A DNA stretch of 54,526 nt from Rhodopirellula europaea 6C (GTDB taxonomy: Bacteria; Planctomycetota; Planctomycetia; Pirellulales; Pirellulaceae), in assembly GCF_000338295.1 (NCBI RefSeq), contig NZ_ANMO01000147.1:1-54526 (forward strand). Direction: 5' to 3'. Made by a program: the position numbers and the translations under genes. The notes beneath the pieces were generated by a model. It was given only the letters and a program-made list of their open reading frames with translations. It did not search any database and was not told the DNA's origin. Positions 10,662 to 17,579 of this stretch are shown here, piece by piece (within the stretch, counting starts at the first letter, position 1; each line of letters starts with the position of its first letter).

Positions 10662-11276
10662 ATGGTGAGTGAGTCTGAACAGTCGCTTCGCTGCGGGGAG
10701 AGCCCCGGGCTGGTGGTCGCTATCGGATCATCGGCGGGTGGCCTAGTGGAAGTGATTCGCATCGCCGAATCGCTCGGTGAATGGTTTCGCGGAACAATCA
10801 TCTTTGCAAACCATCGGCCGCCCGAAAGCGGCAATCGTCTGCACAGCATATTGGCAGGTCGAGCTCGCATCGAAGTCGAAGAACCTGAGGACGAAGACTG
10901 CCTCGAAAAGAGCACGATCTACGTTGGACACGCCAGTGACACGGTGGAGGTCGACGGGGCGGAGTTTGATGTGGATGAAAACACCAGCATGAAATCTCGC
11001 CTTCGTCGCATCGATGATCTGTTTGCTTCCGTCGCTGAATCCTCGGGAGTCGATGCGGTCGGTGTCGTATTGTCAGGTGCGTTATCCGATGGTGCTTTGG
11101 GGTTGAAAGCAATTTATAACGCAGGTGGGTATTGCATGGTGCAGGATCCCGAGCACGCTGAGCATGACTCGATGCCGGCTTGTGCATTGTCGATGGTCCC
11201 AGATGCGTTTGTTGGGACAACCGACGACATCATCAGCAAGCTCATGGAGATCTCCATGCGGCGGAACCAAATTTGA
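10662..11276 (+). CDS. stand-alone CheB-type methylesterase domain protein
   Basis: The 204 residues consist of just the CheB catalytic domain; the receiver domain that normally precedes it in CheB is absent. The Ser-His-Asp triad is conserved: Ser24 in GSSAGG, His51 in FANHR, and Asp143 in SGALSDGA. The usual glutamine before the histidine is asparagine here. CheB enzymes remove methyl groups from, or deamidate, glutamates of chemoreceptors. Without a receiver the activity cannot be switched by phosphorylation in the usual way. The next plus-strand gene encodes a CheB-CheR fusion kinase, so this copy could be a partner or a competitor. No chemoreceptor is encoded nearby. The ATG is preceded by a GTGGGGA stretch. 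Confidence 0.88.
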   Translation: MVSESEQSLRCGESPGLVVAIGSSAGGLVEVIRIAESLGEWFRGTIIFANHRPPESGNRLHSILAGRARIEVEEPEDEDCLEKSTIYVGHASDTVEVDGAEFDVDENTSMKSRLRRIDDLFASVAESSGVDAVGVVLSGALSDGALGLKAIYNAGGYCMVQDPEHAEHDSMPACALSMVPDAFVGTTDDIISKLMEISMRRNQI

Positions 11277-11847: not shown

Positions 11848-14800
11848 ATGCAAGACGCACCTCGATTCGCCTCCACTCCGATTGTCGCCATCGGAGCCTC
11901 TGCCGGAGGTTTGACGGCACTCGAAATGCTTTTTGAGCAGTTACCCGCCAAAACTGGTGCTGCGTTCGTCGTCATTCAGCATTTGTCGCCGGACTACCAA
12001 AGTCACATGCCGGAATTGCTCGGCCGGCGGACAAAGATGCCAACCGTGCAAATGACCGATCCGGTCACTCCCGAGGCCAACCGAGTGTATTTGTTGCCTC
12101 CGGGAAAGCAGGCTGAACTGGTCGAAGGAACATTGCAGCTGTTTGATCGCGAAAGGGAACGCGAGAGCGACGGTGAGCTGAATTTGCCAATCGACCGATT
12201 CTTCTACTCACTTGCCGAACAGGCCATTGGTGAGACGTCCCGAAAGATTGCCGCAGTCGTTCTGTCGGGCACAGGCAGCGACGGCAGCAACGGAATCGTC
12301 GAAGTCAACATGTCCGGTGGCATTGTCATGTGTCAGGACGAAGACTCGGCTCAGTTCAACGGGATGCCGCTCAACGCGATCAAGACCGGCGTCGTCCACA
12401 TCGTCGGTCCGGTGCCGGAACTGGCAGAGTCTTTGTCGCTGTATCTCGGCGGTGATTCAATCGACGAAGTTGTCGCGCACACGTCACCAGCGATTGAGAG
12501 GAATGAACTGGATTTGGTCTACGAGCGTTTGGAAGGATCGTGCGGCGTCGACTTCGGACAATACAAGCACGGGACATTCAGCCGCCGATTATCTCGCCGC
12601 ATGATGATGTCCAAGATCGATCAATTGGACCAATACATTGACAAGTTAGATTCTGATCCGGCCGAGGTGTCACGATTGGCCGACGACTTGATGATCGGCG
12701 TGACTCGATTCTTTCGTGACCCAGACGGCTACACTCGATTGCGAAAACGGTGCATCTCCAAGATTGTCGAGAGTAAAGCGGCCGGCGATGAGCTGCGAGC
12801 ATGGGTCGCCGGATGTGCAACGGGTCCGGAAGCGTACAGCGTTGCGATGCTGATTCATGATGAGGTCAGAAAGAACGGCGTGGACATCACCGTCAAAATC
12901 TTTGCCACGGATGTTCATCCCGATGCGATCCGGTTTGCCCAGCGAGGTTTGTACCCGCCGGAATCGTTGATCGAGATTCCGAAAGATTTGCGTGAACGAT
13001 ATATCAACAGTCACGCCGACGGTTTTGAAATCAATCAGGACGTCCGCAACTCGATCGTGTTCGCTCGTCATGATGTATTGCGAGACGCACCGTTCACGAA
13101 TCTCGATCTGGTCACTTGCCGCAATCTTTTGATCTACTTGGTCGATGAGGCCCAGGCCCGAGTGCTCGGGGCGTTTGCTCACGCACTGCGGAGTCGTGGT
13201 GTGTTGTGGCTTGGGCCCAGTGAAACGCCGGGCGATTTGGCTGACGACTTCACGCCACTCGACAAGCATTGGCGGTTGTTTCAAAAAGAACGCGACAGCC
13301 ACATGCCATTGGACCTAAAGTTGCGAAAGCGACCGCCCACCAATGTCGGCATGTCGATACGACCACGTTCGACTCGGGCACCTTCGGCGGCGTTGGTCAA
13401 TAGCTACGACGTATTGCTCTCGCAATATGCACCCAATGGTGTATTGGTCGATGACTCTCTTCAGGCACTGCAGGTTTTCGGAGATATTTCGGACTACACC
13501 GTTGCAATGCGTGGTCGACTCAGCGGCACGATCGAAGACATGCTGGTTGAGAGCTTGGGCATGCCGCTGACGATTTTGATGCAGCGGATGAAACTGAATC
13601 AGCGCAGCGCCGAATCGGAACAAGCGATTGTTGAGGGCAGCTCTGTGGAAATCCGCGTTAAAGCGATTCCGCATCGAAACCTAAGCGAAACGCACTACTT
13701 TATCTCTTTTCACCGGGATGGCTCGGTGGGACAAAAAGTATTGGCCTCGCCCGTGCGAGAAACACGGGAGCCGGAGACCGTCGATCGGCACAGAGACACC
13801 GATACGGTGACTGCGTCACCGTCAGCAGCGAACGTTCCCATGTTGACCGAGCGAATCCGCATGCTCGAATTGGAGCTTGATTTTACTCGAGAGAACCTGC
13901 AAGCCACCATCGAGGAAGTCGAGACTACCAACGAGGAATTGCAGTCGAGCAACGAAGAGCTGACTAGTAGCAACGAAGAGCTACAAAGCACGAACGAGGA
14001 ACTGCACAGCGTCAACGAAGAACTGCACACAACCAACTCAGAGAGCAGTCGTCGTCTGAATGTTTTGACCGAATTGACAACCGATCTCGAAAACGTGATG
14101 CGAGAAAGTGATATCGGTATCGTGTTGGTCGACAACGAAAACAACATTCGCCGGATCACGCCCGCAGCAGCTGATATTTTGCGAATTCGTCGCCACGATG
14201 TCGACGGGCAACCACTAGCGACCTATACGCACGCTTTCGAGGATATTGAATTGATTGAGGTGGTCAAGCAGGCCAATCAAGAAGGTCGTTCGATCGAGAT
14301 GGAAACGATCGACGGACGTCGAGATCCCATTCTGCTGCGGGTAACTCCTTACCAGAATGGCAGCGGCACTTTGCTGACCATGACCAATCTCCGCAGCGTC
14401 AAGGAGACATCCGAACGTCTACGTAAATTGACATCAATCTTTGAGGACAGCACGGACGCAATCATCGGTGTTGAATTAAGTGGACGCATCAGCAGTTGGA
14501 ACAACGGGGCGACACGCCTGTTCGGAAACGACGTGGATGTGGATCGAAACGTTGAGCTGGGAGATGTGATTCCCGCCGTCGTCTGGGGGCATTGCGAAGA
14601 ACTGATCAAGGAACTCGCCAAGAAAGGCGAGGTTGCTGCCAAAGAAATTTACGTCAAGTTCAATGGGCGAAAAATAAATCTGCTCATACGCGTCACGCCA
14701 GTATTGGACGAATACGATCGCGTTTCTTCCGCGGCGATTACGTTCTACGACGTCACGGTGATGCGAGTCGCAGAAGAACAATTGAACCTGCGAACACGGG

Positions 14801-17067
14801 CAATCGATGCCGCAAGCAATGGATTTGTTATCGTCGATGCGCAAGCCAAAGACACGCCGATCGTGTATGCCAATCAAGGTTTCTTCAACCTGACCGGATT
14901 CGCTCCTGAAGAAATCGTCGGTCGCAACTGTCGCTTTCTTCAGGGGCCACAGACGGATCCTTCCAATGTCGACATGATTCGTGACGCCATCCAGAAGAAA
15001 CAAGAATGCCGTGTGACGCTGCTAAATTATCGCCGCGACGGATCCCAGTTTTATAACGATCTGATCATCACCCCAATTCAGGACAGCCAAGGGGTGGTGA
15101 CGCACTTTGTCGGCGTTCAGAACGACGCCACCGACATCGTTGAGGCTCGGAGAACGCTCGAGGCCAGCGAACTGGAATACCGCAGCACATTCGAGAATGC
15201 CGCCATTGGGATGGCTCATGTCGGGATGAACGGAGAGTGGTTGAGGGTCAACGAAAAGCTGTGTTCAATCGTTGGCTACCCCTCCGAAGAATTGAAAACA
15301 AAGACATTTCAAGACATCACGCATCCGGAGGACCTGGACAAGGATCTCGTTCAATTCGCACAAATGAAACGCGGCGAGACCACCGGCTACTCGATGGAGA
15401 AGCGGTATATCCATCGCGACGGCCATGTCATTTGGATCAATCTAACAGCGTCGCTGCGTTGCAACCGGGACGGCAGCCCTGAATGTTGTATCTCGTTGAT
15501 CGAAGACATTACCGCGCGGAAAGAGACGGAGCAAAAATTATCCGCCTCTCGAGCGATCATCACCGAGGTGATCCAGCAAAGCGATGATCCATTCGTCAGT
15601 TTTGATGAGACGGGGGAGATTCAGGTTGCCAATCGTTCCGCGGGACAACTCACGGCCCTAACCGGCGATCTCACCGGCCGTTCTTACGAAGAGTTGTTTG
15701 CCGGTGAATCCGAGGCACCATTGATCGCGGCGATCGATCGGGTTCGGAGATCTCAAAGGGGTGAACTGACTGAGTTTTTCTCCAGGTTTCTGAATCGTTG
15801 GTACGATGCTCGCGTCTTTCCGGTTGAAGGTGGAGCAGCGGTTTACATGACCGATGTGACGGGCCGAAAAGAAACCGAGGCTTATCTCGAACGGGCTCGC
15901 TTCGCCGCCGAGGAAGCCAACAAAGCGAAGAGCAAGTTCCTGACGAACATGAGCCACGAAATCCGCTCTCCGATGACAGCTATCCTGGGATTTTCCGACA
16001 TCGCACTGCGTGATGTTCGCGATGGCAAATCTGTTGACCCGGCCAACTTGGAAACAGTCATCCGCAACGGACGATTCTTGCTTCGCATCATCAACGACAT
16101 CTTGGACCTGTCCAAAGTCGAAGCCGGAAAATTAGAGGTTCGCAAGACTCGGTTTAAATTGTTGCCGATGTTGACCGACATCAAGGAACTGATGCGTCAC
16201 CGCAGCAAGTCCTCTGGTGTGCCGTTGTCATTTGAATTTGCATCGCCGGTGCCTGAGCGTTTGCACAGCGACCGTTCGCGTCTTGAACAGATTCTGGCGA
16301 ATTTGATTGGCAATGCGCTGAAGTTCTCGCCCAATGGTGACGTGAAGGTGCTCGTTGATGTGGATGAAGACACCGGCAGCGATCTTCGGTTCCGCGTCAT
16401 CGACACCGGCATCGGCATTTCAGAACAAAACCTGTCGCGGCTTTTTCAGACCTTTTCGCAGGTCCACGACAACAAGGCGGTTGGTGTGGAAGGGACCGGA
16501 TTAGGATTGGTCATAAGCAAACGGCTCGCCAAATTACTTGGTGGAGACATAACGGTGCAGAGCACCGAAGGTGTAGGGAGTTGCTTCACCTTGTTGCTGC
16601 CCTTCGACGAGTCGGCCAATCGAATTGAAGCGTCTGCAAGCGATCTTTCTGTCAAGCGAACCGTGCAGAAAGAGGTTCAGCAAATTTCAGCACGGGTCTT
16701 AATCGCCGACGACGCACGTGACGTCCGGTTGGTCACCAGTCGCTTTCTGTCTCGCGCGGGTGCCGATATTGTCGAAGTGGTCAATGGTGCGGAGGCGGTG
16801 CGAGCGGTGCATGACGCTGAATCAGAGAGACGCCCTTTCGACATCATTTTGATGGACATGCAAATGCCTGAGCTGGACGGTCGCGAAGCGACTCAGCGGA
16901 TTCGCGATGAAGGTTTCACAATGCCCGTCATCGCCTTGACCGCCGGTGCGACATCCGAAGAAGTCGACGAAGCTCTAGCGGCTGGTTGTACCCAGTTCAT
17001 TGCCAAGCCGGTCGACGCTCCGGACTTGATTAGCCGAGTCGCCAAGCTGCTAAAGGGTGAGCAGTAG
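11848..17067 (+). CDS. CheB-CheR-PAS/LOV hybrid histidine kinase with C-terminal receiver
   Basis: The 1739-residue protein has, in order, a CheB methylesterase domain (~10-190; triad Ser18, His45, Asp145), a CheR methyltransferase (~225-485), a PAS-like region (~515-625), and a heptad coiled coil rich in NEELQS repeats (~660-735). Three PAS-type domains follow; the last (~985-1105) is a LOV domain with GRNCRFLQG, Cys1028, and the conserved NYRRDG and FVGVQND boxes. Two more PAS domains (~1110-1340), HisKA (His1370 in NMSHEIRSP), HATPase and a receiver (Asp1670) complete it. The CheR SAM motif reads GCATGPEAYS, with proline where the family usually has glutamate. No membrane helix is visible. 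The LOV motif suggests blue-light input by flavin-cysteinyl adduct. A CheY-like gene follows. Confidence 0.95.
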   Translation: MQDAPRFASTPIVAIGASAGGLTALEMLFEQLPAKTGAAFVVIQHLSPDYQSHMPELLGRRTKMPTVQMTDPVTPEANRVYLLPPGKQAELVEGTLQLFDRERERESDGELNLPIDRFFYSLAEQAIGETSRKIAAVVLSGTGSDGSNGIVEVNMSGGIVMCQDEDSAQFNGMPLNAIKTGVVHIVGPVPELAESLSLYLGGDSIDEVVAHTSPAIERNELDLVYERLEGSCGVDFGQYKHGTFSRRLSRRMMMSKIDQLDQYIDKLDSDPAEVSRLADDLMIGVTRFFRDPDGYTRLRKRCISKIVESKAAGDELRAWVAGCATGPEAYSVAMLIHDEVRKNGVDITVKIFATDVHPDAIRFAQRGLYPPESLIEIPKDLRERYINSHADGFEINQDVRNSIVFARHDVLRDAPFTNLDLVTCRNLLIYLVDEAQARVLGAFAHALRSRGVLWLGPSETPGDLADDFTPLDKHWRLFQKERDSHMPLDLKLRKRPPTNVGMSIRPRSTRAPSAALVNSYDVLLSQYAPNGVLVDDSLQALQVFGDISDYTVAMRGRLSGTIEDMLVESLGMPLTILMQRMKLNQRSAESEQAIVEGSSVEIRVKAIPHRNLSETHYFISFHRDGSVGQKVLASPVRETREPETVDRHRDTDTVTASPSAANVPMLTERIRMLELELDFTRENLQATIEEVETTNEELQSSNEELTSSNEELQSTNEELHSVNEELHTTNSESSRRLNVLTELTTDLENVMRESDIGIVLVDNENNIRRITPAAADILRIRRHDVDGQPLATYTHAFEDIELIEVVKQANQEGRSIEMETIDGRRDPILLRVTPYQNGSGTLLTMTNLRSVKETSERLRKLTSIFEDSTDAIIGVELSGRISSWNNGATRLFGNDVDVDRNVELGDVIPAVVWGHCEELIKELAKKGEVAAKEIYVKFNGRKINLLIRVTPVLDEYDRVSSAAITFYDVTVMRVAEEQLNLRTRAIDAASNGFVIVDAQAKDTPIVYANQGFFNLTGFAPEEIVGRNCRFLQGPQTDPSNVDMIRDAIQKKQECRVTLLNYRRDGSQFYNDLIITPIQDSQGVVTHFVGVQNDATDIVEARRTLEASELEYRSTFENAAIGMAHVGMNGEWLRVNEKLCSIVGYPSEELKTKTFQDITHPEDLDKDLVQFAQMKRGETTGYSMEKRYIHRDGHVIWINLTASLRCNRDGSPECCISLIEDITARKETEQKLSASRAIITEVIQQSDDPFVSFDETGEIQVANRSAGQLTALTGDLTGRSYEELFAGESEAPLIAAIDRVRRSQRGELTEFFSRFLNRWYDARVFPVEGGAAVYMTDVTGRKETEAYLERARFAAEEANKAKSKFLTNMSHEIRSPMTAILGFSDIALRDVRDGKSVDPANLETVIRNGRFLLRIINDILDLSKVEAGKLEVRKTRFKLLPMLTDIKELMRHRSKSSGVPLSFEFASPVPERLHSDRSRLEQILANLIGNALKFSPNGDVKVLVDVDEDTGSDLRFRVIDTGIGISEQNLSRLFQTFSQVHDNKAVGVEGTGLGLVISKRLAKLLGGDITVQSTEGVGSCFTLLLPFDESANRIEASASDLSVKRTVQKEVQQISARVLIADDARDVRLVTSRFLSRAGADIVEVVNGAEAVRAVHDAESERRPFDIILMDMQMPELDGREATQRIRDEGFTMPVIALTAGATSEEVDEALAAGCTQFIAKPVDAPDLISRVAKLLKGEQ

Positions 17068-17174
17068 CGACGATGGGTGTGAAGCTTGAAGAAGCTCATG
17101 AGACTGCGTGTTTCCGCAGTGTGTTGCATTTTGGCATGTGGGTTGCTCGTCAACAGAGTCCGAAAGGCAACCCA

Positions 17175-17579
17175 ATGGAACTCATCAATTCACATACCGG
17201 ACAGCAGGCAACCGTGTTGGTCGTCGATGATTCGGCAATGGTTCGGTTTCTTATCCAGCGAACCCTTGTTTCGATTGGGATTGCAACTTTTTCAGCCCCG
17301 GACGGCATCGCTGCTGTCGAGCTGCTCATCGCTCGCCGCTTTGATGCTGTCGTGACGGATCTCGAGATGCCGCGTTTGCGAGGAGGGGATTTGATTGATC
17401 GCATCCGTCGCCACGACTGTGCTGAGATTCGTGATCTTCCCATCATTGTCGTCAGCTCTCTTGATGATCAAGTCACAAAGAATCGGCTGCGGTTTCTTGG
17501 TGCGAATGTGGTGCTGCACAAGCCACTTGATATCGAGAAGCTGATCGAGAACGCGCGAAATTACATTGTAGCTTGTTAG
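17175..17579 (+). CDS. CheY-like single-domain response regulator
   Basis: The 134-residue product is one receiver domain and nothing else. The acidic pair is Asp18-Asp19 (VVDDSAMVRF), the phosphorylation site Asp62 (VVTDLEMPR), and the conserved Ser and Lys are in VVSSLDD and LHKPLD. With no output domain it would act by protein contact or as a phosphate shuttle. It lies just downstream of the LOV/CheB-CheR kinase, its likely partner. The ATG at 17175 is chosen because AAAGG lies 7 nt before it; a longer frame from ATG 17073 adds 34 residues lacking domain resemblance and a ribosome site. Confidence 0.9.
   Translation: MELINSHTGQQATVLVVDDSAMVRFLIQRTLVSIGIATFSAPDGIAAVELLIARRFDAVVTDLEMPRLRGGDLIDRIRRHDCAEIRDLPIIVVSSLDDQVTKNRLRFLGANVVLHKPLDIEKLIENARNYIVAC

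Follow-up and report, generated by a model that had tools for sequence, protein, structure and literature searches.

A complete LOV domain within a CheB-CheR hybrid histidine kinase of Rhodopirellula europaea 6C points to a probable blue-light input into kinase signaling

Can a bacterial hybrid kinase that also carries chemotaxis-type methylation domains sense blue light, and, if so, through which of its outputs would the signal act? This question is raised by a single open reading frame of 1739 codons at positions 11848-17067 (+) of the window, i.e., the whole 54,526-nucleotide stretch of DNA analyzed here, which corresponds to contig C147 in an assembly of 7.19 Mb. According to the open reading frame list and the translation, this one frame holds the entire fusion, and Pfam matches together with domain slices give the order CheB-CheR-coil-PAS-PAS-LOV-PAS-PAS-HisKA-HATPase-REC. 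The protein begins with a CheB methylesterase domain (residues 13-196; 11884-12435; Pfam E of 3e-46), followed by CheR_N and CheR (residues 220-271 and 285-472 in Pfam; 12505-13263). A NEEL-rich coil (approximately residues 665-740), identified from sequence, a domain slice, and conservation, and a Pfam PAS_10 domain (747-840) occupy 13840-14367. The next PAS domain (residues 861-975; 14428-14772) was delimited by a domain slice in a region with several Pfam PAS stretches, for which only the best match per family is given; the best PAS_9 match of the protein, among these stretches, lies at 991-1096. The LOV domain (residues 983-1110; 14794-15177) is followed by the Pfam domains PAS_3 (1133-1216; 15244-15495) and PAS_4 (1244-1341; 15577-15870), by the kinase (residues 1360-1587; 15925-16608; HisKA 1360-1427 and HATPase_c 1475-1587), and by a receiver domain (residues 1617-1731; 16696-17040), all encoded on the same (+) strand. 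Alignment finds the residues of a hybrid histidine kinase in place, namely the phospho-accepting His1370, the ATP-site residues Asn1489 and Asp1519, and the receiver Asp1670. A sequence-only reading of this DNA had placed the LOV domain between CheB/CheR and the kinase. The order is correct; however, the domains are not adjacent, as the coil, PAS_10, and a PAS domain precede the LOV domain and two further PAS domains follow it before HisKA.

Judged by its sequence, the region of residues ~985-1105 is a complete LOV domain. The boxes GRNCRFLQG, NYRRDG, FYNDL, and FVGVQND are all present as that reading had described them, and the codon of Cys1028, the flavin-adduct cysteine predicted from a domain slice and alignment, lies at 14929-14931, inside its interval of 14800-15160. 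Residues 983-1110 match the NCBIfam profile YtvA_fam with an E value of 1.8e-45 and 155 bits, the family cut-off of 250, which applies to full-length proteins, not being reached. When residues 960-1120, the slice proposed for a profile check, were compared as a 161-residue query with PDB sequences, 150 distinct matches with E up to 1e-5 were obtained, solved LOV domains among them. Among the best 60 of these 150, a histidine-kinase chain (9vf7; 5.7e-40) ranks first and a phototropin chain (8qi9, which we take to be Chlamydomonas LOV1; 2.6e-36) follows, with aureochrome-type LOV chains slightly below. The alignment to solved LOV domains shows the signature positions filled by Asn1027, Cys1028, Arg1029, Gln1032, Asn1060, Asn1070, and Gln1091; presumably, the flavin is contacted by Asn1060, Asn1070, Gln1032, Gln1091, and the neighboring Arg1029. 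The flavin-contacting Asn and Gln residues, whose loss had been named as grounds for abandoning the LOV assignment, are thus all kept. As a prediction from these residues, blue-light sensing by the domain is well supported.

Given the presence of four more PAS-type modules in the protein, one could conceive of a single PAS domain drifting towards LOV by chance, or of a decayed relic. We assign this a very small probability, since the E values against solved LOV domains reach 5.7e-40, seven signature positions are unchanged in all 29 aligned relatives (below), and a loosened LOV cysteine motif has one match in the six frames of the 54.5-kb window, namely in the LOV domain of the 1739-residue frame. 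Elsewhere in the host genome, the YtvA profile has matches at eight places, two of which are the window protein and a paralogue on contig C246. Two others, C119:19224 and C211, were rejected as further LOV domains because an intact signature is absent on alignment (at C119:19224 a Cys is nearby, but an extra residue is inserted and the adjacent Asn is missing), and the four remaining places were rejected at scores of 35.4 bits or less. No LOV cysteine motif was found in the open reading frames of loci L013, L014, and L015 that match any domain slice.

We found that the fusion recurs among relatives. After duplicate removal, 37 distinct CheB-CheR-LOV-kinase proteins were collected, all from Planctomycetota and all with the LOV cysteine. 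A CheB-CheR-LOV-kinase-receiver protein is encoded at least once in every one of the 13 same-genus genomes, that of the window included. At E 1e-12, LOV matches occur in 20 of 40 genomes (the host's among the 40, all 13 of the genus among the 20; twenty places examined). The host itself has two fusions with LOV, the window protein, which represents the subtype called type A below, and one of type B (C246, L023). Neorhodopirellula pilleata (L037) is the nearest named relative by LOV, with 82% identity, which puts the host within the Rhodopirellula group of Pirellulaceae. In a scan of named genomes, the best 80 of 335 relative-encoding stretches contained 16 in which a single frame encodes CheB, CheR, LOV, kinase, and receiver, all 16 assigned to Planctomycetes by title or taxonomy line; in the other 64, the frame with LOV lacks CheB-CheR, and at least one of these (L048) is cut by a contig end upstream of LOV. 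The family sample of 119 Pirellulaceae genomes has LOV at E 1e-25 in 25 and the fusion in 16, and 11 of the 12 newly examined places, with frames under 1100 residues left out, proved to be fusions. Across the phylum, LOV at E 1e-25 is present in at least 18 of 392 genomes, and two fusions were found among the 13 places examined out of 19 outside our own set, the other six having frames under 900 residues; locus L130 is again cut by a contig end upstream of LOV, and in both L048 and L130 CheB-CheR could lie beyond the end.

Outside this phylum, the fusion was not found among the LOV places checked in two samples. The sample anchored on a Halomonas MAG has LOV at E 1e-20 in at least 78 of 398 genomes, with CheB or CheR in none of 19 LOV open reading frames (all listed LOV frames of 1000 residues or more). 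The sample anchored on an Obscuribacterales MAG, which we take to belong to Cyanobacteriota, has LOV in 75 of 292 genomes among the matches listed; no LOV and CheR shared one frame in the 45 of these 75 genomes whose listed LOV frames include one of 1150 residues or more, compared by eye with the CheR places present in 39 of the 45. For the phylum, Halomonas-anchored, and Obscuribacterales-anchored samples alike, the first pass scored, in many genomes, only some of the candidates, and the restriction of the fusion to Planctomycetota is accordingly provisional. Neighboring genes in the latter two samples are of separate interest. Three of the 19 Halomonas-sample places adjoin CheB or CheB-CheR genes: in L141 (1408-6127) and L142 (1377-6096), from two genomes, a REC-CheB gene and the start of a ~1200-residue REC-containing LOV protein overlap, a pairing that is possibly another link of LOV to chemotaxis-type signaling, and in L143 (2978-8503) the gene of a 1325-residue LOV protein is divergent to a CheB-CheR gene continuing beyond the examined stretch. 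In the Obscuribacterales-anchored sample, a LOV frame and a CheR frame are neighbors within ~3 kb at G1028:C32:142014-145563. In a LOV tree (71 rows, 120 columns, non-fusion LOVs subsampled), the fusions fall in four places, a pattern compatible with a single entry of LOV into the fusion as well as with several. The CheB-CheR tree (40 rows) includes three rows without LOV, all long-branched; three duplicates were left out, as were the non-LOV host loci L158 and L160, in which the trimming motif was unmatched.

To compare the fusions residue by residue, 29 were aligned (12 of type A, 8 of type B, and 9 of type C). The type A proteins have the form seen in the window, in type B LOV and kinase are separated by a gap the size of one PAS domain, and in most type C proteins the LOV adjoins the kinase. 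Asn1027, Cys1028, Gln1032, Asn1060, Asn1070, Leu1072, and Gln1091 are identical in 29/29, the invariance of Cys being partly by construction, as rows were pulled by a Cys-containing pattern; yet all fusions from the 40-genome, named-genome, and phylum samples passed that pattern. Arg1029 is replaced by Lys in two proteins, three proteins have Tyr and one has Leu in place of Phe1087, and Arg1045, presumably the position contacting the FMN phosphate, is variable in types B and C. Eight later fusions outside the alignment also keep the LOV cysteine (in L177, the motif reads GRNCRLMQ). All fusions were found via LOV similarity, so strongly decayed LOV copies could be missed. On the kinase side, His1370, Asn1489, Asp1519, Asp1670, Lys1720, and Thr1698 are unchanged in 29/29. 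Within the 12 type A proteins, mean pairwise identity is 0.71 for LOV versus 0.60-0.66 for the other four PAS-type modules, and LOV is not higher than CheB (0.75) or CheR (0.73). A second C-terminal receiver domain is present in the fusions L123 (3640-9075) and L049 (5088-10391).

The spacing between domains bears on where a light signal would go. The distance between the LOV Gln and the kinase His is 279 residues in 11 of the 12 type A proteins (281 in L046), 168 in 8/8 of type B, and 36 in eight of the nine of type C (175 in L049). For seven of the eight later fusions (without L166), this distance is 36 or 168 in five, 160 in L169, and 169 in L177. The distance from coil to Cys is likewise 319 in 10 of the 12 type A proteins. 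The stretch from CheR to coil, in contrast, drifts over 275-294 across the 12 type A proteins (265-294 over all aligned fusions). Yet this stretch is 279-280 in six of the eight type B proteins, and the CheB-to-CheR spacing is 281 in all 12 of type A; part of the constancy is therefore relatedness, and it is mainly type A that carries the contrast. Altogether, these distances suggest that coil, PAS, LOV, and kinase may form a single signaling stack whose register is fixed, and that in type A CheB-CheR is tethered more loosely; by the same reckoning, most proteins of type C amount to a simple junction of LOV and kinase. From this pattern we infer an action of light on the kinase, similar to that in the LOV histidine kinases already known.

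The reading that we favor, and consider quite probable from the sequence comparisons, is that the protein is a hybrid histidine kinase with multiple sensors, one of its PAS-type modules being a photoactive LOV domain that gates autophosphorylation. The LOV domain would bind FMN, and blue light would drive formation of an adduct between Cys1028 and the flavin; the resulting change would reach HisKA by way of the PAS stack and the linkers, so that autophosphorylation of His1370 and transfer to Asp1670 would be altered. From there, the phosphoryl group would perhaps move to a separate receiver. CheB and CheR would constitute a loosely attached front module, and any tuning of them by phosphorylation state or light is speculative. 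The four other PAS-type modules could carry the dominant signal. In addition, LOV domains are able to sense redox state and the integration of metabolic cues is common in PAS-rich hybrid kinases, which would fit a LOV domain that acts in vivo as a sensor of redox or flavin level instead of light. We consider this improbable, as the adduct cysteine is kept in 37/37 proteins and is not obviously needed for a pure redox role, with the proviso that sampling by LOV similarity could miss decayed copies.

A different output is conceivable, in which the state of the LOV domain or of phosphorylation switches the fused CheB and CheR and light thereby directly controls chemoreceptor-type methylation, setting the methylation of MCPs or other proteins. 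Several observations speak for it. CheB Ser18/His45/Asp145, which we take to be the catalytic triad, and CheR Arg290/Glu328/Asp355/Asn426, presumably cofactor-site residues, are present in the window protein and unchanged in 29/29 fusions; MCP domains occur at three places in the host genome; and 16 of the 119 Pirellulaceae genomes sampled retain the fusion. On the other hand, besides the drifting CheR-to-coil length of type A, the CheR GEE motif at 12826-12831 reads GPE in the window protein, its first Glu being replaced by Pro. Directly before Glu328, the 12 type A proteins have Gln (9), Pro (2), or Lys (1), against Glu in 17/17 of types B and C. Glu328 aligns with the second Glu of GEEPYS in solved CheR, presumably the cofactor-binding one, and loss of the first Glu may mean altered methyltransferase activity in type A. 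The host also has a che cluster (L136) with a stand-alone CheR (279 residues), a REC-CheB (378 residues), a 122-residue receiver, and a 919-residue PAS protein at an MCP position. Its CheB matches lie at ten places, including seven CheB-CheR fusions, two of these with LOV; the other five share the coil/PAS_10 region, with LOV assigned in none of them. Two host CheB-CheR fusions without LOV stand head to tail in L157 (2265-8070). CheW domains occur at four places. Since dedicated CheR and CheB are present and the fusions outnumber the three MCP places, MCPs are not obviously the targets of the fused domains. We therefore regard direct control of methylation as unlikely. The sequence-only reading had proposed light-controlled methylation or signaling: its signaling half, taken as kinase signaling, is indirectly favored by the near-fixed LOV-to-kinase spacing, and its methylation half, for all the intact residues, finds no known substrate and other CheB/CheR genes in the same genome.

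The genes on either side offer further candidates. A stand-alone receiver gene lies directly downstream (17073-17579, +; Pfam) and is a possible phosphotransfer partner of the kinase. It has a homologue directly downstream of the fusion in L018 (46% identity) and a weaker one (29%) in L042; none was seen beside the other nine of the eleven type A loci compared. Just upstream lies a gene for a stand-alone CheB domain of 204 residues without a receiver (10662-11276, +; Pfam), whose membership in the system is uncertain: it has no stand-alone counterpart in 17 loci compared, and a 200-residue stand-alone CheB adjoins the type B fusion in L172 (183-785). In L042-L045, a divergent PAS-kinase-receiver gene is found upstream of the type A fusion.

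Both parents of this architecture are familiar, as LOV kinases and CheB-CheR fusion kinases are each already known. Brucella LOV-HK has the order LOV-PAS-kinase, and we know of no bacterial LOV histidine kinase with CheB or CheR. Such kinases, e.g., Brucella LOV-HK (available part of PMC6171537) and the 'multi-sensor hybrid histidine kinase' of 6rhg, likewise place LOV in a histidine kinase; the window protein differs in carrying, in addition, CheB-CheR, another four PAS-type modules, and a receiver at its C terminus. With YtvA and phototropin LOV, the protein shares the LOV domain, including the signature residues, and the output domains of those photoreceptors are entirely unlike those of a CheB-CheR-LOV kinase. 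CheB-CheR fusion kinases, which we take to be KEGG K13924, have the same front end and kinase, and the window protein differs from them by the LOV domain in its PAS stack. For Azospirillum sp. B510, histidine kinases with CheB methylesterase and methyltransferase among their domains are described in the accessible portion of PMC4618731. Among the matches listed, titles and the starts of abstracts contained no description of a CheB-CheR-LOV protein, nor did the accessible portions of PMC5812497, PMC4844311, PMC8846402, PMC8508746, PMC4618731, and PMC6461901; the 2016 PNAS LOV census, outside this scope, may hold one. In the 2014 LOV/BLUF census (PMC4844311), as far as its text is available, the legend to a figure of protein counts per phylum names Planctomycetes, and CheB/CheR are absent from the main text.

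Regarding the biology of these bacteria, planctomycetes with a CheB-CheR-LOV kinase probably sense blue light, as judged from the conserved LOV residues. To our knowledge, little is known of planctomycete photobiology beyond rhodopsins. That the domain occurs in an organism not known for phototrophy, which the earlier reading had stressed, adds little surprise, since many LOV carriers are non-phototrophs. The available text of PMC4844311 refers in its abstract to bacterial species in a number described as unexpectedly large, and that of PMC6461901 describes rhodopsins in freshwater Planctomycetes. The compact subtype, in which 36 residues separate LOV from the kinase His and to which L075 of Rhodopirellula solitaria belongs, is a handy form for assays. 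A doubtful extension of the methylation idea would make these proteins a photoreceptor family, so far of Planctomycetota only, in which blue light sets methylation (CheB/CheR) and phosphorylation (kinase) from one polypeptide, i.e., a light-set adaptation level instead of a simple on/off; if it is true that light reaches the methylation domains, this would be, as far as we know, a new output for LOV. For the blue-light signal downstream of LOV, the kinase is, by our inference, the most likely route. With this protein, blue-light sensing in Planctomycetes gains a concrete candidate, and LOV and CheB-CheR are seen joined in nature.
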